From positions 1 through 38,943 of the IMG/VR virus record IMGVR_UViG_3300009443_000015: a stretch of 38,943 bases of DNA; one strand, written 5' to 3'. Position 1 is the first letter of the stretch. Each line of letters begins with the position of its first letter. Shown piece after piece: positions 6,301 to 35,870 of the stretch. A program made the translations under genes and the position numbers. Under the pieces are notes generated by a model. The model was not told the DNA's origin. It searched no databases and saw only the letters and a program-made list of their open reading frames with translations. The DNA is from a virus.

Positions 6301-8778
6301 AGAAGCACGGATAAAATTAGACAAGAGATACGAGACTCTGATAAAAGAATGCGTGACAAGTTGAAAGATATAGACGCAGCCCAAGATTCTTTTAGGGAGG
6401 AGCGGATATATGAATCTGTACGTAAACAAGCGATGCTTGCTGCACAAAGAGATGTTGAGACTAAACTATCTAGGTTCTTTAAGGGGTGGGGTAATAACAG
6501 AGTTTACGCAATGATATGGCAGACTAGTTCTGTTATTGCTAGTGCTTTAGGTGGAATCGCTAGTACATTCAAGCAGTTTGCTAAACTGGGAGCGGAACCT
6601 ATTGCTGACTTGATGAGTACTAAAAAATACAGAGGCACTCAGATAGGTGCTTTACAAGTTTTAAAAGCTAATGCTTACGGTTTAAGAGAAGGACTTAAAA
6701 ACTGGAAAGGAACAGGCAGGGCTGTAGCTATGACGGCTAAGAATTTAGAAAGTGCAACAGGTGCAGCAGGGGCGAACAGATTAACTGGAGATATTTCACT
6801 AGGAGACCCTGAGAAGTTGTTTGAGGCAGCCGAAGAATTAGCGAGAAGAAAGAGGTTACGTGGGGAAAAAGTTACTGGAGTTCAACATATATTTGCTCGT
6901 ATGCCTATTGGTAAGATGTTAAACGAATTACTTAAACTACCACTGCGTGGCATAATGCCTATAGATGAACTTTTCAGAAGACAGTTACTAAGGTCAGAGC
7001 TTATGTCTGAAGCGTGGAAGGATGCTTTTGAAGCTATACCTAATGACCCTAATAGAGCTAGTGAATTAGCTGCTGATCTTTACAAACAGAAATGGACTAA
7101 GGACCAAGGTATCGAGATATTAAGTCAAGAAGGTGTAAACGCTACTGCGACTGATACCATTAATAGAGAACTTTTGTTTGATTCTAATGTAGCTAATTTA
7201 GACCCAACCGAGATAGCACAGCCTATATCTGACACGGTGTTAAGGTTTGTTAAAGAATTGAAACTATTAAAGGATAATCCATCGGCAGGTGCGTTGATAC
7301 ATTTACTTGCTCCTATAATGACGGTTGTTGCTAGGGGTGCGGGTCGCTCGATACGTGTTGGGGTTCCTGTAATACCAGCAACACAAGCTATTAGAAACCC
7401 TTACAACCGTAGGATTAAAAGAGTAGAGGGTGAAATTAGGAACAAAGATAATTACATAGCACACGAAGAGACTACCCCTCAAAGACGACAAGAGTTACAA
7501 AAAGAGAAAGAAGAACTAGAACAAAAAATAAAAGAATTAAAAGGAAGAAGGATAGCATACCATAGAGACGCTATAACAGACACTTTGATGGGAAGCGGTA
7601 TGATGGCTGCGGGATACGGTATGGGTGCAGCCGGAGTCGCTCTAGGGACTTTAGCTTGGATGACCCCAGAACAACGTAGGAAGTTTGAACATAAAAACCC
7701 TAAAGCTAAAGCTAACACTATAGAGGGATGGGGATACAGGGAGTTATTTCCGTTGTCTATCGCATTTGCTATAGGAGCCGATTTAGCTAACTACGCTGAA
7801 ATGAAAGAGTTTACAGGTGAAGACGGAAAGCCTATTTTAACAGAAGACCAAAATCATTTAGGTTTCGTATTAAGGTCCATTGCGGAGCTTTTCAGGGAAG
7901 TCCCAGTTGCTGGAGGTATGAAGTCCATTGAAAGAATAATGAGCGGGAAAGATGAAAATATAAATTCAGTTCTTGCTGATTGGCTTGGTTCTTTTGCTTT
8001 AATGCCATCTCAAATAAATAAAGTATTAAAATTGTTTTTTGAAAAAGGAAGCGTTGAAGAACTTAAAGGGGGTACTTGGCAAGACAGAACAGCTTACAAA
8101 GTAACAGGCCACAACCCAACAGGTAATAAGAAGACAGACCACTTTGGGCATGATATGCAATCTCCTAAGACTTGGTTGAATACTTTTATTAGATGGGCTC
8201 CTGAAAGATCGGAGGAGTTAAATGCCTTTGATGAAGTGTATAAAAAAGACATAGAAGGAGATGGGCAGTTAATTAAACCACCTAATCAATTTCCTACAGG
8301 TAAAGGTTTAGTTAGCGGCATCGATATGTATAAGTTTATAGATAATAACGGAGTGTCTTTACATTATAGATTTAATCAAGAAGTTAAGAAATTAAATGTA
8401 GATAAAAAGATTATAGAAATTGTTAAGGACAAGAAATGGAGGAAGGCGTGGTTAAAAGGTTCTAAAAAAAGAACAGGCACAGCAGATATAGGCTCTGTCT
8501 CTAACCCTGCGTTGCAAGTTTTAAATACGACTTTCAGGAAATCTTATGAAGCGGCAGCTAAGAATATGATGAAGGATAAAAATTTATTAAAAGAATTTAT
8601 AAGCGAAGAGGAAAACGAAATAGGCACTTTGGATTACAATAAGTACGGACCTCATAAGACCCTCAAGCAAGTAATTGATTCCGCTAGAGGTAAATCCGTT
8701 TACACAGGGGAGCCTGTATCAGTAGAAAGAGCTTTAGGAAGAAACGACTTAAAGGAACTCATAGAAGCTAACCCTTAA
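3301..8778 (+). CDS. gp16-like giant internal core/ejection protein (1825 aa)
   Basis: The largest gene in the window, in the gp16 position. T7 gp16 is 1318 aa and carries an N-terminal lytic transglycosylase domain; here the first 300 residues show no SLT-type catalytic motif (no recognisable ES...N-G arrangement). Visible parts: acidic N-terminus; Gly/Ala hydrophobic stretches around 70-150; coiled coil about 280-350; a low-complexity Glu/Pro/Val linker about 345-445; long Lys/Glu/Arg coiled coils about 560-1070; hydrophobic segments near 1075-1100 and 1430-1455 (Gly- and Met-rich); a more globular C-terminal part. It probably spans the inner membrane during ejection. The start ATG lies one base after the gp15-like stop, indicating coupled translation. 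An antisense open frame within it is ignored. Confidence 0.75.
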   Translation: MPTFEELRKSKYGDSKPQFEEEEVDDSTVPLEERLPAPYEDAADIMVSELLNPNTQLTTKQQEQSTSEAFSSEQWFGLTLGTSFELTAPIASNLAYIKWLNRAKAAAKVTKPFKATPLGLLGFGAAEVTVGALSNIANQKIQLHYKSQKAFKLSEVMAAGVFNASPVVKVIDGLPVFKFLQPKTGSKFSYRNIVTKGGEKLVSGAAIGILESAFRQSVSGLLQEQDLFDESGNVKEGVYRDLLVSAGVGATLNTALHGGVGLFSYWRTKGKAGRAEAVKLTDLMESELVKQVDDINKEIQKEADDVGIFTNFAKKNAKIAKLKKQRKQLEEAKELNQQLKEEIQEENARVDEAEANPKPIEEEQSLTEEELDAPDEKLREVEEEVVEEPKTVEEEVEVETEEPTKVEEPVQPTAKEPETAVQEEPIKEAEPPKPEAVPTPKPKVLKRDNVLQSLIDRTKAAFSGGDVPTIEGANIIREGKKLYDNSISIFTKAIHTFREGGNKDVRALQIALDEVVFLRKLNQKVSDPLSTLIGRGMQSHRQDAAKYNYQTVLSERAGAESDAWSDVEKSLRQTIENEADVTLFKNIQDALDVRPRFKRLGEELDRQATQDFKNKLREATEKKPKEIPQEVIISRLQKKLREAQQEFAGLKPEQKAKKGKDKSQEEIDIQKKLDFYATGKREAKQLAQEESRLETYLELLEEGDIAKIRQQVGPAPDWTNKKAVGSYLATIRKVNNKTKKLLQKQVVESDISLQDPSKVAKAQAKQKAQLEKRLKELQKRFGDINKIRPKDKPKKAEADAEIEDLKNRIKFHEANEADALKLEEALKERARLLKVETGPLGQQRAEITKPKGPSKVPGELEKVNKDIAFLRKNMRQRVDDIDRARLEMDEAYQEAKMLESIRKRRAIAQKRLDERRARLGDDDDLDSRAAERAGRKIEETDPVLVETQEKIKFYDELEAEALKKKELKEELARRAEMEGRGVVSEMRAHLAPKPTGPQKVRSTDKIRQEIRDSDKRMRDKLKDIDAAQDSFREERIYESVRKQAMLAAQRDVETKLSRFFKGWGNNRVYAMIWQTSSVIASALGGIASTFKQFAKLGAEPIADLMSTKKYRGTQIGALQVLKANAYGLREGLKNWKGTGRAVAMTAKNLESATGAAGANRLTGDISLGDPEKLFEAAEELARRKRLRGEKVTGVQHIFARMPIGKMLNELLKLPLRGIMPIDELFRRQLLRSELMSEAWKDAFEAIPNDPNRASELAADLYKQKWTKDQGIEILSQEGVNATATDTINRELLFDSNVANLDPTEIAQPISDTVLRFVKELKLLKDNPSAGALIHLLAPIMTVVARGAGRSIRVGVPVIPATQAIRNPYNRRIKRVEGEIRNKDNYIAHEETTPQRRQELQKEKEELEQKIKELKGRRIAYHRDAITDTLMGSGMMAAGYGMGAAGVALGTLAWMTPEQRRKFEHKNPKAKANTIEGWGYRELFPLSIAFAIGADLANYAEMKEFTGEDGKPILTEDQNHLGFVLRSIAELFREVPVAGGMKSIERIMSGKDENINSVLADWLGSFALMPSQINKVLKLFFEKGSVEELKGGTWQDRTAYKVTGHNPTGNKKTDHFGHDMQSPKTWLNTFIRWAPERSEELNAFDEVYKKDIEGDGQLIKPPNQFPTGKGLVSGIDMYKFIDNNGVSLHYRFNQEVKKLNVDKKIIEIVKDKKWRKAWLKGSKKRTGTADIGSVSNPALQVLNTTFRKSYEAAAKNMMKDKNLLKEFISEEENEIGTLDYNKYGPHKTLKQVIDSARGKSVYTGEPVSVERALGRNDLKELIEANP

Positions 8779-11093: not shown

Positions 11094-11228
11094 ATGAGTA
11101 ACGTACAAGTACAACTTCGCAGAGGAACGACCGCCCAACACGCCGTTTATACGGGGCCACAAGGCGAGGTCACAGTAGACACCGATAAGAACGCCCTGGT
11201 GTTGCACGATGGAGCTACGGACTGCTAA
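11094..11228 (+). CDS. 44-aa truncated tail-fibre adaptor domain (QLRRGTTAQHA type)
   Basis: A very short frame beginning MSNVQVQLRRGTTAQHAVY, followed by GEVTVDTDKNALVLHDGAT and then a stop. This is the well-known N-terminal module of many phage tail-fibre and tropism-determinant proteins (Mtd-N-like), which normally continues after HDGAT with GG and a long distal domain. Here it ends after two further residues. It may be a decayed fibre gene or a free-standing adaptor. It starts 11 bases after the tail fibre stop, and its stop overlaps the next ATG (TAATG). Its G+C is visibly higher than in the flanking genes. Confidence 0.6.
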   Translation: MSNVQVQLRRGTTAQHAVYTGPQGEVTVDTDKNALVLHDGATDC

Positions 11229-11479
11229 TGACCGAAACCCTCTCACACTTCCTCGACACCGCCCTTGCCGTCGTTATAGCCGTCATTGGGTGGGCGATTA
11301 AAAAGTTCTCTGACCGGCTTGATACCGACGAGAAACGCCTGACCAGGATCGAGGTTGAACTCGCCGCTCAACGCGAGAGGGATAACGCCGTTGAAAACCG
11401 TATGAGCGGGTTGGAATCGACGATCAAAGAAATTAATCATAAGATTGACCGCATGATGGAAATGCTAATGAGGAAATAA
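11228..11479 (+). CDS. small membrane protein with coiled coil (holin- or spanin-like)
   Basis: An 83-residue protein with one predicted membrane helix at about 9-26 (Leu/Val/Ala/Ile-rich, ending in GWAIKK) followed by a charged coiled coil from 30 to the end. An N-terminal anchor plus coiled coil is the topology of inner-membrane spanins and of some phage holin-like proteins; I cannot choose between these. The start overlaps the previous stop as TAATG, so translation is probably coupled. The segment 11094-11479 is more G+C-rich and uses C-ending codons more than its neighbours, hinting at separate origin. An antisense open frame over the same bases is taken as a shadow. Confidence 0.6.
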   Translation: MTETLSHFLDTALAVVIAVIGWAIKKFSDRLDTDEKRLTRIEVELAAQRERDNAVENRMSGLESTIKEINHKIDRMMEMLMRK

Positions 11480-31199: not shown

Positions 31200-31428
31200 T
31201 TCACACACTTATGTTATCATTGAGGCATCCGAGGTGGACTCTGTTGATTTTAATGAAGTAATAAACACTTCCAAAGAAATGCTTCGCTACTCACTAGATG
31301 GTATTAAAACATTCGTTAAGTACGAAGGCACACAACCATTCTTTCTGCTCGGTAAGACGGAGTACACACACGAAGAGATACTTACGATCTTGAGTGGTCC
31401 TGAGTGGACGAGCGAAGACGACATCTAA
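31192..31428 (+). CDS. hypothetical 78-aa protein before portal
   Basis: A small acidic protein (MYNSHTYVIIEASEVDSVDF, NEVINTSKEMLRYSLDGIKT, FVKYEGTQPFFLLGKTEYTH, EEILTILSGPEWTSEDDI). Proteins of the form 'yviid..ev..vdF..v...s.et.r.S.Dg...ivKw.g..P' are a recurrent small phage family linked to the structural block; function unknown to me. It overlaps the LamG protein gene and its stop is 5 bases before the portal ATG. Confidence 0.65.
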   Translation: MYNSHTYVIIEASEVDSVDFNEVINTSKEMLRYSLDGIKTFVKYEGTQPFFLLGKTEYTHEEILTILSGPEWTSEDDI

Positions 31429-31433
31429 ACGAT

Positions 31434-32999
31434 ATGCACGAAACAGCTCAAGGGCTATATCATAGCTTAGAGAACCAAAGGTGGTCTTTCTTGGATAGAG
31501 GTAGAACCTCATCTGAGTTGACACTTCCGTATGTCTTACCACCTGACGGTCACAGTCACGCTAGTAAGTACTACACACCGTACCAAGGTATAGGAGCTAG
31601 AGGTGTACTCAATCTAAGCAGTAAGTTATTACTGGCATTACTTCCACCTAACGCTCCCTTCTTTCGACTTGTTATAGATAAGTATGAGTTGGATAAAGCT
31701 AAGGAAGACATCGGAGTAGAAGGAGCAGAACAACTACGTACTGACTTAGAGAAAGCATTAGCTGATGTAGAGCGTAGTGTATCACAGGAAGTAGAAGTAC
31801 AGAACTTTAGGAACGGTATATTCCAAGCACTCAAGAACTTACTTGTTACTGGTAACTCTTTATTATACCTACCGGACGAAGGTGGTATGCGTGTCTTTAA
31901 ACTTGATCGTTATGTTATCAAGCGTGATCCAATGGGTAACGTTACACACATAGCTATTAAAGAAACTGTAGCTCCTATGATGCTCCCTGAGAGTGTTCGT
32001 GAGGAAGTATACAAGCAAGAGAAGGAAAACACTTGTGATCTATATACAGCGGTAGTACGAGAAGGAGATCACTTCAACGTTTATCAAGATGTCAAAGGTA
32101 TCCTCATTGAAGAAAGTGTGGGTAAGTATCCAATCGATAAGTCCCCATGGCTCCCTTTACGTTACACCCAGATTGATGGAGAGGACTACGGCAGAGGTTT
32201 TGTTGAAGAGTACATCGGAGACCTCAAGTCGTTGGAAGCACTTACAAAAGCTATCGTCGAAGGTAGTGCAGCGGCTGCTAAAGTATTGTTCATGGTCAAC
32301 CCGAACGGTACAACAAGATCGAGAACCTTAGCAGAAGCACCGAACGGAGCAATCGTACAAGGTAGTGAAGCAGATGTATCGGTGTTACAACTTAATAAGT
32401 TTAATGACTTCCGTACTGCTCAAGCTACTATGGCTGGCATAACAGATAGACTTAGCCAAGCTTTCCTACTTACATCAGGAGTAGTTAGAGATGCAGAACG
32501 AGTAACAGCTGAAGAGATACGTATGCTCAGTCAAGAGTTAGAAGCTGCATTAGGGGGTCTTTACTCTTTGTTATCACAGGAGCTACAGCTACCCATCGTT
32601 ACTAGGTTGATGGCTAAGATGTCTAAGGACAAGCGTCTACCTAAGATACCTAAAGATATTGTTAAGCCTACTATTGTTACTGGTGTTGAAGCTCTAGGTC
32701 GTGGTAATGATCTTAATAGATTAGATATGTTCCTGGCTGGAGCTAACCAAGTAGTAGGACCACAAGCTGTTACTCAATACTTAAACGTTAGTGATTACTT
32801 TAAACGTCGTGCTACTGCTCTAGGTATAGAGACTGAAGGCTTAATCAAGACGGAAGAAGAAATTCAACAAGCTATGCAGCAAGCTCAACAACAAGAGATG
32901 ATGATGAAGTTAGGCGGACCTGCTGTAGCACCTGCTATCAATGCTGCACAAGAGCAGTACATGGCAACCCAACAACAAGAACCACCTCAAGAGGAATAA
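31434..32999 (+). CDS. portal / head-tail connector protein (gp8-like)
   Basis: A 521-residue portal protein (T7 gp8 is 536 aa). Clear family segments: YTPYQGIGARGVLNLSSKLL, LKNLLVTGNSLLYLP, VIKRDPMGNV, IDGEDYGRGFVEEYIGDLKS, ERVTAEEIRMLSQELEAALG, LGGLYSLLSQELQLPIV, a Gln-rich C-terminus. It forms the dodecameric ring through which DNA is packaged. I chose ATG 31434, 5 bases after the preceding stop; a GTG at 31404 in frame would add 10 residues and overlap the preceding gene. The order portal, scaffold, capsid matches T7 apart from an insertion between the last two. Confidence 0.97.
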   Translation: MHETAQGLYHSLENQRWSFLDRGRTSSELTLPYVLPPDGHSHASKYYTPYQGIGARGVLNLSSKLLLALLPPNAPFFRLVIDKYELDKAKEDIGVEGAEQLRTDLEKALADVERSVSQEVEVQNFRNGIFQALKNLLVTGNSLLYLPDEGGMRVFKLDRYVIKRDPMGNVTHIAIKETVAPMMLPESVREEVYKQEKENTCDLYTAVVREGDHFNVYQDVKGILIEESVGKYPIDKSPWLPLRYTQIDGEDYGRGFVEEYIGDLKSLEALTKAIVEGSAAAAKVLFMVNPNGTTRSRTLAEAPNGAIVQGSEADVSVLQLNKFNDFRTAQATMAGITDRLSQAFLLTSGVVRDAERVTAEEIRMLSQELEAALGGLYSLLSQELQLPIVTRLMAKMSKDKRLPKIPKDIVKPTIVTGVEALGRGNDLNRLDMFLAGANQVVGPQAVTQYLNVSDYFKRRATALGIETEGLIKTEEEIQQAMQQAQQQEMMMKLGGPAVAPAINAAQEQYMATQQQEPPQEE

Positions 33000-33005
33000 C
33001 AAACA

Positions 33006-33776
33006 ATGGCTGAATTACACCGAGTAGAGATAAATGAGAAAGCACCAAGCGAAATCGAACCCGAAGAAGAAACCAACACCGAGAGCGAGGAACTACCGCA
33101 AGAGCAAAGCGACCGCCCGGAATGGCTCCCCGAAAAGTTCAAGAGTCCAGAGGATATGTCGAAAGCGTACTCCGAATTGGAAAAGAAACTTGGACAAAGT
33201 CCTGAAGAAGGTACGGAAGAGTCTGAACAAGTTGAAGAGAAAGCTAAGGACCAAGAAGAACAAACTGAAGAGAATACTAGTGAAGCATACCAAGCGGTTG
33301 CGGAGGCAAGTAAAGAGTTCTTTGAAAACGACGGTCAACTTAGTGAGGAAACTTATAACACTTTAGAGAAAGCTGGACTACCTAGAGACTTAGTAGATAG
33401 CTACGCCGCTGGTCAACAAGCATTGTTACAATCTGAAGAAGGACAAATCAAAAGCGTGGCTCAAGGGAACTACGAAGCGATGGCTGAGTGGGCGAACGAG
33501 AATTTACCACAGGAAGAAGTTGAAGCTTTTGACGAGGCCGTTACGGGTGGTACAGTTTCGCAAGCTAAGTTAGCAGTCCAAGGTCTTTACGCTCGCTATC
33601 AAAATGAGGTAGGAGCTAAGCCGAAGCTTACGCAAGGAGGAGTCAATGGTGCATCTACTATGCCTTTTCGTTCTATGCAAGAGCTTGCTCGTGCTCAGTC
33701 AGACCCCAGGTACAAGAGCGGTGATAAAGCTTATCACGAAGAGATTGACAGACGTTTGCAAGTAAGTAGTATTTAG
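33006..33776 (+). CDS. scaffolding/capsid assembly protein (gp9-like)
   Basis: A 256-residue, very acidic protein (T7 gp9 is 307 aa). The first 100 residues are Glu/Gln/Ser-rich with the conserved WLPEKFKSPEDMSKAYSELE segment typical of phage scaffolds. A helical middle and a C-terminal basic helix (RSMQELARAQSDPRYKSGDK, ending RRLQVSS) complete the pattern; in the family the C-terminal helix contacts the coat protein. It directs procapsid assembly and is lost at maturation. It lies 6 bases after the portal stop and is followed by a terminator. Confidence 0.93.
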   Translation: MAELHRVEINEKAPSEIEPEEETNTESEELPQEQSDRPEWLPEKFKSPEDMSKAYSELEKKLGQSPEEGTEESEQVEEKAKDQEEQTEENTSEAYQAVAEASKEFFENDGQLSEETYNTLEKAGLPRDLVDSYAAGQQALLQSEEGQIKSVAQGNYEAMAEWANENLPQEEVEAFDEAVTGGTVSQAKLAVQGLYARYQNEVGAKPKLTQGGVNGASTMPFRSMQELARAQSDPRYKSGDKAYHEEIDRRLQVSSI

Positions 33777-33848: not shown

Positions 33849-34172
33849 ATGATGACTGTAATGAAAGAGTTAAACGAGAACACACAGGTTAAAGCTAACC
33901 TTGCATTTGTTGCTAAAGTAATAGGTATAGTCGGTACAGCTGTGTGGGGTTATAGCGTCCTGTGGAACAAGCTTAATACGTTAGACCTAGAGATCATGCG
34001 TATCAAACACGACGTAGAACTTAATGCGGAGTTCCGAGTGAAGTGGCCTAGAGGAGAGCTTGGTGCATTACCTGCTGATGCTACTCAAGATATGCGTTTA
34101 ATGTTCATGGAAAAGCAAGTAGGCAAACATGAAGAACTACTTGAGAACTTACGATACGGAGACTTAAAGTGA
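33849..34172 (+). CDS. single-pass membrane protein with periplasmic coiled coil (i-spanin candidate)
   Basis: A 107-residue protein with one membrane helix at about 18-38 (FVAKVIGIVGTAVWGYSVLW), then a helix (LNTLDLEIMRIKHDVELNAE), a conserved-looking FRVKWPRGELGALPADATQD segment and a C-terminal coiled coil. Proteins with the WPRGELGALPAD motif occur in other aquatic T7-like phages, with no proven function. The N-terminal anchor plus extended helix is the topology of an inner-membrane spanin. It lies one base before the holin-like gene that contains the lipoprotein frame, which supports a lysis role, by inference. Confidence 0.6.
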   Translation: MMTVMKELNENTQVKANLAFVAKVIGIVGTAVWGYSVLWNKLNTLDLEIMRIKHDVELNAEFRVKWPRGELGALPADATQDMRLMFMEKQVGKHEELLENLRYGDLK

Positions 34173-34173
34173 G

Positions 34174-34641
34174 ATGGGTGAGTTACTTATGTTATTTATC
34201 ACGGGCGGTGGCAGCACTGCTATGGGGGCGATTCTTAAAGGCGTGTTCGGATATGTCTTTGAAGCCAAACAGAACAAGCATGATCTTGAAATGGCGAGAG
34301 AGGCTCGTTCGTCTGATAATTTCCTTCGACTACAAGCTGAAATCGCTAAAGGAGGTACTGGTGAGTTTGTTTCTTTTACTCGTCGTATTCTTGCTGTTAT
34401 CGGGGTGTCTACGCTCTGTAGCTGTATCATCCTTTGCACCCTCTATCCCCAAGCAGAAATCGTTACCTTTACAAACGCAGACGGAGAAGGTGTCAACGAG
34501 TTCTTCTTTGGACTCATCAGTTTCCAAGCCCACCAAACACCGATCACCATCTCTTCTGGACACATCAGCCTTATGGGATGTACGGTAATATTGCCTTGTA
34601 TCTTAGGGTTTTACTTTGGTCCGAGTGGTCGAAGAGGTTGA
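34174..34641 (+). CDS. holin-like membrane protein
   Basis: A 155-residue protein. The N-terminus has a small-residue hydrophobic segment (about 8-28), followed by a charged helix (EAKQNKHDLEMAREARSSDN), then a membrane helix at about 70-91 (RRILAVIGVSTLCSCIILCT) and another at about 130-150 (ISLMGCTVILPCILGFYFGP), ending in a basic SGRRG. The combination of a charged helix before RRxLA and a closing GFYFGxS is seen in three-segment holin-like proteins of marine phages and gene-transfer agents. The second half also encodes the lipoprotein at 34361 in another frame. Function as a holin is plausible but unproven. Confidence 0.6.
   Translation: MGELLMLFITGGGSTAMGAILKGVFGYVFEAKQNKHDLEMAREARSSDNFLRLQAEIAKGGTGEFVSFTRRILAVIGVSTLCSCIILCTLYPQAEIVTFTNADGEGVNEFFFGLISFQAHQTPITISSGHISLMGCTVILPCILGFYFGPSGRRG
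34361..34588 (+). CDS. embedded lipoprotein, o-spanin (Rz1-like) candidate
   Basis: A 75-residue frame lying entirely inside the holin-like gene in another frame. It starts with GTG at 34361 preceded by a perfect AAAGGAGG (34348-34355) at 5-base spacing. The product begins MSLFLLLVVFLLLSGC: a short hydrophobic signal peptide with lipobox LSGC, so Cys16 would be acylated and the mature 60-residue chain would begin at it. The mature part is Ser/Pro/Lys-rich (about six prolines), as in short outer-membrane spanins such as lambda Rz1 and T7 gp18.7, which are also encoded in overlapping frames. It would bridge to an inner-membrane spanin, most likely the protein at 33849, to fuse the membranes at lysis. 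Confidence 0.7.
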   Translation: MSLFLLLVVFLLLSGCLRSVAVSSFAPSIPKQKSLPLQTQTEKVSTSSSLDSSVSKPTKHRSPSLLDTSALWDVR

Positions 34642-34811: not shown

Positions 34812-35870
34812 ATGGCAAATGGAAATACTTCCCCCAGTCGTGTAGGTCTTATTGAAGGCGGATCAGATAACGATGCGTTGTTTCTCAAGAAGTTCAGCGG
34901 AGAAATTCTGCAAACCTTCGAGGAGTCTAACATCTTCAAACCTCTACACACAATCAGAACCATCGACAGCGGCAAGTCTGCACAGTTCCCAGTAACTGGA
35001 ATCGCTTCTGCTTCGTACCACACTCCCGGCGAAAACATTGCCGACGGTGGAAACAGCTACCTCAGCGACGTTAAGAAAAGCGAGAAGATCATCAACATCG
35101 ATAAGATGCTTGTTGCTTCTACTTTCTTGGCTAACATCGACGACGTAAAGAATCACTACGACATCCGCAGCGTTTACGCTAACGAGTTGGGTAAAGCTCT
35201 TGCCGTCCGTTTCGATACTGCTATCGCTAAAACATTCTTAGCTGCTGCTCGCGACTCTGCTAACCTTACAACTACTTCCGCGGGTTCTACCTACGATGTA
35301 GCTGGAGAAGCTTTCGGTCGTGGTAGCCTTGACCCAACTGCTGTTGATACCTTCACTGGTGCTCAGTTAGTAGGTGCTTTGTTTGCTGCTGCTCAAAGGC
35401 TTGACGAACAAGACGTTCCTTCTGACGGTCGTTTCTGCGTTCTTCGCCCTGCTGAATACTACAAGTTAGTAACAGGTGCTGACGCTTCTAACACCTTCAG
35501 CCTTACTTCTGTTATTAACTCCGACATCGGAGGTCAAGGAAGTATCGCTTCTGGTAACGTTCCACAAATCGCTGGTATCAGCCTCTACAAGTCCAACCAC
35601 CTCCCATCAACTGATTTGTCTGGTGGAACTGGAGTTGACGCTGGTAGTAGCAATGATGTATTCGGCGGTAACGGAGTAGGGTACGACGGAGACTTCCGTA
35701 ATACCTTCGGTATCGTTTCTCACAGTGCTGCTGTAGGAACCGTTAAGTTACTCGACTTGGCTACTGAGTCTGAATATCAGATTGAGCGTCAAGGTACATT
35801 GTTTGTTGCTAAGTATGCTATGGGTCACGGAATCCTCCGTCCTGAGTGTGCTATCGAACTAGCTTCGTAA
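34812..35870 (+). CDS. major capsid protein (gp10-like)
   Basis: A 352-residue coat protein of HK97-type fold, close to T7 gp10A (345 aa). Family segments: DNDALFLKKFSGEILQTFEE, IRTIDSGKSAQFPVTGIASA, YHTPGENI, INIDKMLVASTFLANIDDVK, HYDIRSVYANELGKALAVRF, and a Thr/Gly/Ser-rich loop before RNTFGIVSHSAAVGTVKLLD. Codons are biased to C-ending forms and the gene has its own leader and a strong terminator, consistent with very high expression. It is separated from the scaffold gene by the proposed lysis cassette, unlike T7. I see no evidence for a frameshifted 10B-type extension. Confidence 0.97.
   Translation: MANGNTSPSRVGLIEGGSDNDALFLKKFSGEILQTFEESNIFKPLHTIRTIDSGKSAQFPVTGIASASYHTPGENIADGGNSYLSDVKKSEKIINIDKMLVASTFLANIDDVKNHYDIRSVYANELGKALAVRFDTAIAKTFLAAARDSANLTTTSAGSTYDVAGEAFGRGSLDPTAVDTFTGAQLVGALFAAAQRLDEQDVPSDGRFCVLRPAEYYKLVTGADASNTFSLTSVINSDIGGQGSIASGNVPQIAGISLYKSNHLPSTDLSGGTGVDAGSSNDVFGGNGVGYDGDFRNTFGIVSHSAAVGTVKLLDLATESEYQIERQGTLFVAKYAMGHGILRPECAIELAS

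Follow-up and report, generated by a model that had tools for sequence, protein, structure and literature searches.

A lipoprotein-like coding frame under selection very probably lies in the +1 frame of the gene at 34174-34641 in the IMG/VR virus record IMGVR_UViG_3300009443_000015 (the window, i.e., the whole analyzed stretch of 38,943 bases). The best explanation of the locus as a whole, which in our judgment stands just past the point of balance, is a dual-coding gene whose frame 0 specifies a holin-like protein with multiple transmembrane (TM) stretches and whose +1 frame specifies a small lipoprotein with an LSGC lipobox and an o-spanin role. An earlier sequence-only reading of this DNA had pointed to such an embedded lipoprotein frame within a holin-like gene. 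This part of the reading is borne out by a frame that is stop-free and keeps its lipobox in relatives of the gene.

The window carries T7-like genes for a head-tail connector, a scaffold, and a Gp10A-like capsid protein. The locus runs from the scaffold gene (33006-33776; PF05396, E=1e-10) through a 107-aa gene (33849-34172) and the outer gene (34174-34641) to the major capsid gene (34812-35870; Gp10A-like match, E=1e-68), which agrees with the placement between scaffold and capsid in the sequence-only reading. The outer protein is small, with hydropathy peaks near residues 72-90 and 128-150 and at least two TM stretches as in holins, and only this topology makes it holin-like. Neither Pfam nor PHROGs returned a holin match for members of any of the four clades defined below (A, B, C, and D), or anything convincing for the outer or the nested product. 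The AlphaFold model of the outer protein is poor (pLDDT 50.6), too low to serve as a fold-search query. As a separate observation, the connector gene (31404-32999) contains a 91-codon open +1 run (expected, 44; length reached in 0/2000 synonymous shuffles) and is depleted in +1 stops relative to its shuffles, a possible second overlapping ORF.

Features of the dual-coding locus (positions in the window).
Feature	Position	Strand	Description
Upstream gene, candidate i-spanin partner	33849-34172	+	107 aa; N-terminal TM, charged coiled-coil-like tail; TGA overlaps the +1 ORF start
Outer gene	34174-34641	+	155 aa; conserved membrane protein, two clear TM stretches (~70-90, ~128-148), hydrophobic N-terminus
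Full +1-frame ORF	34169-34588	+	GTG start, 139 aa; stop-free across the outer gene; GTGA overlap with the upstream stop; stop avoidance
CTG, likely internal start position (+1 codon 46)	34313-34315	+	ATG in 14/14 B, 7/7 C, 32/46 D; CTG, ATG, ACG, GCG, or GTG in A
Suppressed synonymous change, clade A	34318-34416	+	Outer codons 49-81, covering the +1 product's n-region, its hydrophobic core, and its lipobox
Shine-Dalgarno-like AAAGGAGG	34348-34355	+	5 nt (TACTG) before GTG 34361
Short nested ORF of the sequence-only reading	34361-34588	+	75 aa; start kept only in the window's subclade (31/81)
TTG codon	34367-34369	+	Only internal ATG/GTG/TTG beside the signal peptide found in 81/81 of clade A
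Lipobox LSGC	34397-34408	+	Cys codon 34406-34408
Predicted mature chain	34406-34588 (including stop codon)	+	60 aa; Ser-rich, lacks Asp at +2 and any further conserved Cys
Invariant patch TCTTCTGGACACATCAGCCTTATGGGA	34552-34578	+	Outer codons 127-135; free of synonymous change in clade A and almost invariant in B and C

The nested ORF that was read from the sequence, i.e., a GTG preceded by AAAGGAGG at 5-base spacing and followed by a lipobox inside the outer gene, is present exactly as described. Its 75 codons lie in frame +1 of 34174-34641, end at the stop codon 34586-34588, and specify the product MSLFLLLVVFLLLSGC..., and a six-frame scan of the whole window ranked it as the most hydrophobic ORF with a lipobox. 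The +1 frame is also open 5' of GTG 34361, back to GTG 34169. The third base is T in each of outer codons 65-75, so that the +1 residues are hydrophobic (codon-frequency product, 1.4e-5). The Gly and Cys of LSGC are carried by outer-frame GGG and GTG, whose third-base G is infrequent in the rest of the gene (9% and 15%, respectively).

IMG/VR yields many relatives of the outer protein. The comparison covered 176 distinct outer-gene relatives: 81 in the window's own clade A, 14 in B, 7 in C, and 74 of D type, with identities to the window's outer protein of ~64-69% (B and C) and ~45-52% (D type); the most distant relatives of the set are 44-49% identical. Throughout this set (176/176), no stop occurs between codons 46 and 135 of the +1 frame, which contains a lipobox-like Cys with G, A, or S at -1. 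Within clade A, the nested frame has no stops (0/81), the Cys and the preceding Gly are invariant (81/81), and Ser precedes the Gly in 80/81, so that the lipobox reads LSGC in 80 sequences and LLGC in one. Members of B and C have no lipobox at the clade A position; they share a conserved Cys at +1 codon 86 (21/21), kept by an outer codon 87 that is CTG, TTG, or ATG, in looser lipoboxes (VLSC, VSSC, QLSC). The notion of B and C as clades devoid of the lipoprotein was dropped in view of this shifted Cys, held by wobble choice. In D-type sequences, the Cys falls on codon 71 of the +1 frame, on codon 77, or on both (74/74) and follows residues such as MSSRLSSKKASTAVMAVLLLAQLAGC, which resemble ordinary lipoprotein signals. 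Among the 46 clade D genes examined in detail, +1 stops occur solely at codons ≤37 or ≥137, and codons 114-126 form a conserved stretch in the mature chain (0.92 versus 4.16 changes per codon). Every nested-frame copy found sits within the outer gene, and 21 additional loci inspected held no copy of the lipoprotein outside it. The gene contexts of the outer/nested pair at loci L250, L226, and L257 differ widely (T7-like scaffold-capsid, tail-fiber regions, unrelated structural genes), as those of a mobile module would.

Low synonymous change over the signal peptide is a prediction of nested constraint, because any wobble substitution in the outer frame falls on the second base of a +1 codon. 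We scored synonymous change by counting third-position substitutions under parsimony and expressing them as a ratio to the gene mean. In clade A, the ratio falls to 0.46 at codons 49-64, 0.18 at codons 65-81, and zero at codons 127-135, with values of 1.1-1.4 over most of the rest; the lowest ratio among 2145 comparison windows of 17 codons from six neighboring genes is 0.39, and none of them (0/2145) reaches 0.18. Synonymous change is not suppressed over most of the clade A mature chain (ratio 1.37 at codons 87-126). B and C together have no dip at codons 65-81 (0.93) and show one at their own lipobox (codons 82-86, 0.39). The cross-relative check that accompanied the sequence-only reading thus speaks for the nested frame, with no stops, a retained lipobox, and added synonymous constraint. 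The invariant patch at 34552-34578 could represent a motif (LL[DAG]TS[AP]LW) at the C-terminus of the +1 product or else a DNA/RNA element; it was withdrawn as support for the nested frame because, with its conservation at the DNA level in B and C, the patch is ambiguous. A recurring promoter motif was not supported either, the DNA of the patch being unrepeated in the window. Independently of this locus, clade A relatives also show reduced synonymous change at the 3' end of the capsid gene (codons ~333-352; ratio ~0.39-0.45).

Stop avoidance in the +1 frame was addressed at several levels. Recoding of the outer gene with genome codon usage gave a start, a hydrophobic core, and a lipobox in 0.02% of trials and a frame free of nested stops in 0/20,000 (mean, 7.2 stops), a model that overstates expected stops in biased genes and flagged the capsid gene too. 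The stop test was therefore redone by synonymous shuffling within the gene and then by a context test. When recoding drew on the codon usage of the gene itself, 0.3-5% of the recoded sequences had both an open frame and a lipobox, as compared with the 176/176 relatives observed. Codon bias alone cuts the expected stops from ~12 to 2-6, and own-gene shuffling of single sequences returned P values mostly from <0.001 to ~0.1. In the context test on A/B/C, wobble A is absent before A/G (0/130 versus 26/141 elsewhere, P=1e-8) and wobble G before A (0/79 versus 34/192 elsewhere, P=4e-6), P values that are indicative given that site-states within a clade are not fully independent. This avoidance holds both before and after codon 62, is specific to frame and context, and is absent from the +2 frame. 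In clade D, it follows the limits of the nested ORF, with 11 stop-making codons seen and 12.3 expected upstream versus none seen and 12.6 expected inside.

Given a selected lipoprotein frame, an o-spanin role is the leading inference from these sequences, and we hold it with moderate confidence. The +1 product would be exported and lipidated on the Cys encoded at 34406, and the lack of Asp at +2 suggests sorting to the outer membrane; by this rule, which is that of Escherichia coli, the 148 tabulated sequences all conform, with L, S, V, A, P, or R as the +2 residue. The lipoprotein would then act like an o-spanin, paired with an inner-membrane TM/coiled-coil protein such as the product of 33849-34172, and both partners would fuse or disrupt the envelope at lysis. 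The predicted signals conform to the lipobox pattern [LVI][ASTVI][GAS]C, with LSGC or LLGC in clade A and a lipobox-like Cys in 74/74 D-type sequences, and the mature chain is short (60 aa in A, 66-70 aa in B, C, and D), with 28% Ser and 7.5% Pro over clade A.

We consider it rather unlikely, though less so than the other alternatives, that the product is a genuine outer-membrane lipoprotein with a different late function, e.g., superinfection exclusion or envelope protection. The lipobox and the sorting signs would suit any outer-membrane lipoprotein, and the outer gene is placed in structural regions of differing phages. Furthermore, neither the window's mature lipoprotein nor the product of the upstream gene 33849-34172 has a periplasmic Cys, unlike most spanin pairs; at least one such residue is present in 507/528 pairs and lacking in 21, a feature that is near-universal, not strictly defining (PMC6139136). 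Two C-terminal Cys residues do occur in 27/46 clade D sequences. Spanin profiles gave no sequence match for the nested product, and no endolysin was recognized in the window. Parts of the gene neighborhood point to a spanin instead. A small gene of the N-terminal TM/coiled-coil type lies directly upstream at 94/94 A/B/C loci with enough upstream DNA, and B and D loci also feature a 49-aa holin-like TM protein, although about half of clade D has a different kind of upstream neighbor, often the scaffold gene. Homologs of the upstream gene are found close to lysozyme or peptidase M15 genes in Pelagibacter phages, and in phage HTVC027P they share a block with a peptidase M15 gene. A 74-aa neighbor in B/D has a weak Rz-like profile match (E=0.026).

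Some features of these neighbors are recorded in their own right. The 49-aa TM protein (MIDRVSVLGMSGTAATFGLS...) is specified 3' of the outer gene at several B/D loci (L241, 5465-5614; L246, 5462-5611; L137, ~6465-6614) and has a very weak holin profile match (phrog_920, E=0.21). The clade A upstream TM/coiled-coil genes, including that of the window, have a common N-terminus and at least two dissimilar C-terminal types, which suggests domain swapping. Elsewhere in the window, an 83-aa gene after the tail fiber gene (11228-11479) specifies an N-terminal TM and a coiled coil, with weak matches to a lipoprotein (phrog_462) and an Rz-like spanin (phrog_739, E=0.0018), and is a second i-spanin or holin candidate.

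Where translation starts bears on the nature of the product. The sequence-only reading was right about the lipobox and, by this comparison, not about the initiation site: AAAGGAGG with GTG 34361 occurs in 31/81 clade A sequences, the Shine-Dalgarno-like site is degenerate in many relatives (AAAAGCGG, AAAGCAGG, AAAGGCGG), 17 clade A sequences have AAAAGCGG and GGG at these positions, and constraint begins upstream, at outer codon 49. A better fit is offered by GTG 34169 or by a near-cognate codon close to 34313. In A/B/C, an ATG or GTG opens the +1 frame 5, 8, or 11 nt before the outer ATG (102/102), and the sole canonical start present in every member is the one preceding the outer ATG (GTG 34169 in the window). 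A +1-frame start overlaps the upstream stop by 4 nt, as ATGA or GTGA, at 98/99 loci where the upstream gene is visible. Such start/stop overlaps are typical of translational coupling. Translation in these clades would probably proceed from this rTGA overlap, possibly with extra internal starts, and the product may comprise 139 residues; ~79 of them would precede the lipidated Cys, an atypical arrangement for a signal peptide. Most of clade D could use only an internal start, and every D sequence has either an internal ATG, GTG, or TTG at +1 codons 44-59 or a full-length start. The frame may yield a long product, short products, or both.

It is improbable that A/B/C use the +1 frame only as the long product of 34169-34588, an unprocessed N-in membrane protein composed of a basic N-terminus, a single TM, and an outer tail rich in Ser, with an incidental LSGC. 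The universal start, the lack of stops from the first codon onward, and an ATG at -5 in 8/8 D-type genes with an open upstream frame are all consistent with such a protein. However, a plain TM would not need the rare wobble bases that hold the Gly and Cys of LSGC in 81/81 clade A sequences, and the lipobox persists in 74/74 D-type genes even though most of D has a closed upstream frame. Ribosomal frameshifting out of frame 0, which would fuse the outer N-terminus to the lipobox region, is very unlikely: no +1 stop interrupts the junction region, and TTG 34367 is the only fully conserved internal canonical start beside the signal peptide in clade A, but the D sequences have starts of their own, and a shift would not need the upstream stop avoidance seen in A/B/C. 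Equally remote is a nucleotide-level element or the codon bias of a highly expressed gene with no second protein, for which the DNA-level conservation of the 34552-34578 patch in A, B, and C and the drop in expected stops with codon bias can be invoked, against a stop avoidance that is specific to frame and context and, in D, bounded by the nested ORF, and a lipobox found in every relative at clade-specific positions.

The o-spanin-like lipoprotein that we favor resembles known overlapping lysis genes in part. As in embedded Rz1-type genes (lambda Rz/Rz1), a short lipoprotein is specified in the +1 frame of a membrane-protein gene, its lipobox is LSGC, also the box of T1 gp11, and its mature chain looks disordered and evolves fast. 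Unlike in Rz1-type genes, the host gene is multi-TM and holin-like, with two or three TM stretches instead of the single N-terminal TM of an i-spanin; the mature chain is Ser-rich and not strongly Pro-rich, with no extra Cys in the window; and in A/B/C, the open frame and its canonical start reach back before the host gene. The T7 18.5/18.7 spanin pair consists of an Rz-like gene with an overlapping lipoprotein gene. Here, too, a lipoprotein gene of a T7-like phage overlaps another gene, but it lies between the scaffold and capsid genes, and the host gene differs. In phiX174, the lysis-type membrane protein E, which blocks cell-wall synthesis and has no lipobox, is overprinted in another frame of the conserved gene D. 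The present locus would likewise hold a lysis-type membrane protein gene in an alternative frame of a conserved gene, an arrangement shared with other overprinted phage lysis genes, and differs from E in its lipobox.

Searches of 50,697 deposited phage records and of 84,980 prokaryote species, each represented by one genome, returned no relative of the outer gene; thus, the gene pair is apparently missing from these collections despite being common in viral metagenomes. Gene callers easily miss such nested genes. The relatives form a natural series of one overlap with three lipobox positions, and the extended N-terminus is present in some and absent in others, so that the evolution of lipoprotein signals and dual coding become testable. 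We tentatively suggest, as a possibility that we would not yet favor, that uncultured marine phages harbor a conserved overlapping pair of a holin-like protein and an o-spanin-like lipoprotein, with starts 5-11 nt apart in A/B/C and a lipobox that slides among +1 codons 71, 77, and 86, as an "o-spanin embedded in a holin-like gene." Three spanin architectures are recognized, in which the o-spanin gene is embedded in the i-spanin gene, overlaps it, or lies apart from it, and 182 embedded pairs have been tabulated (PMC6139136). If the nested product is a spanin, a fourth architecture is needed beyond these three, in which the host is a holin-like gene and not an i-spanin gene.
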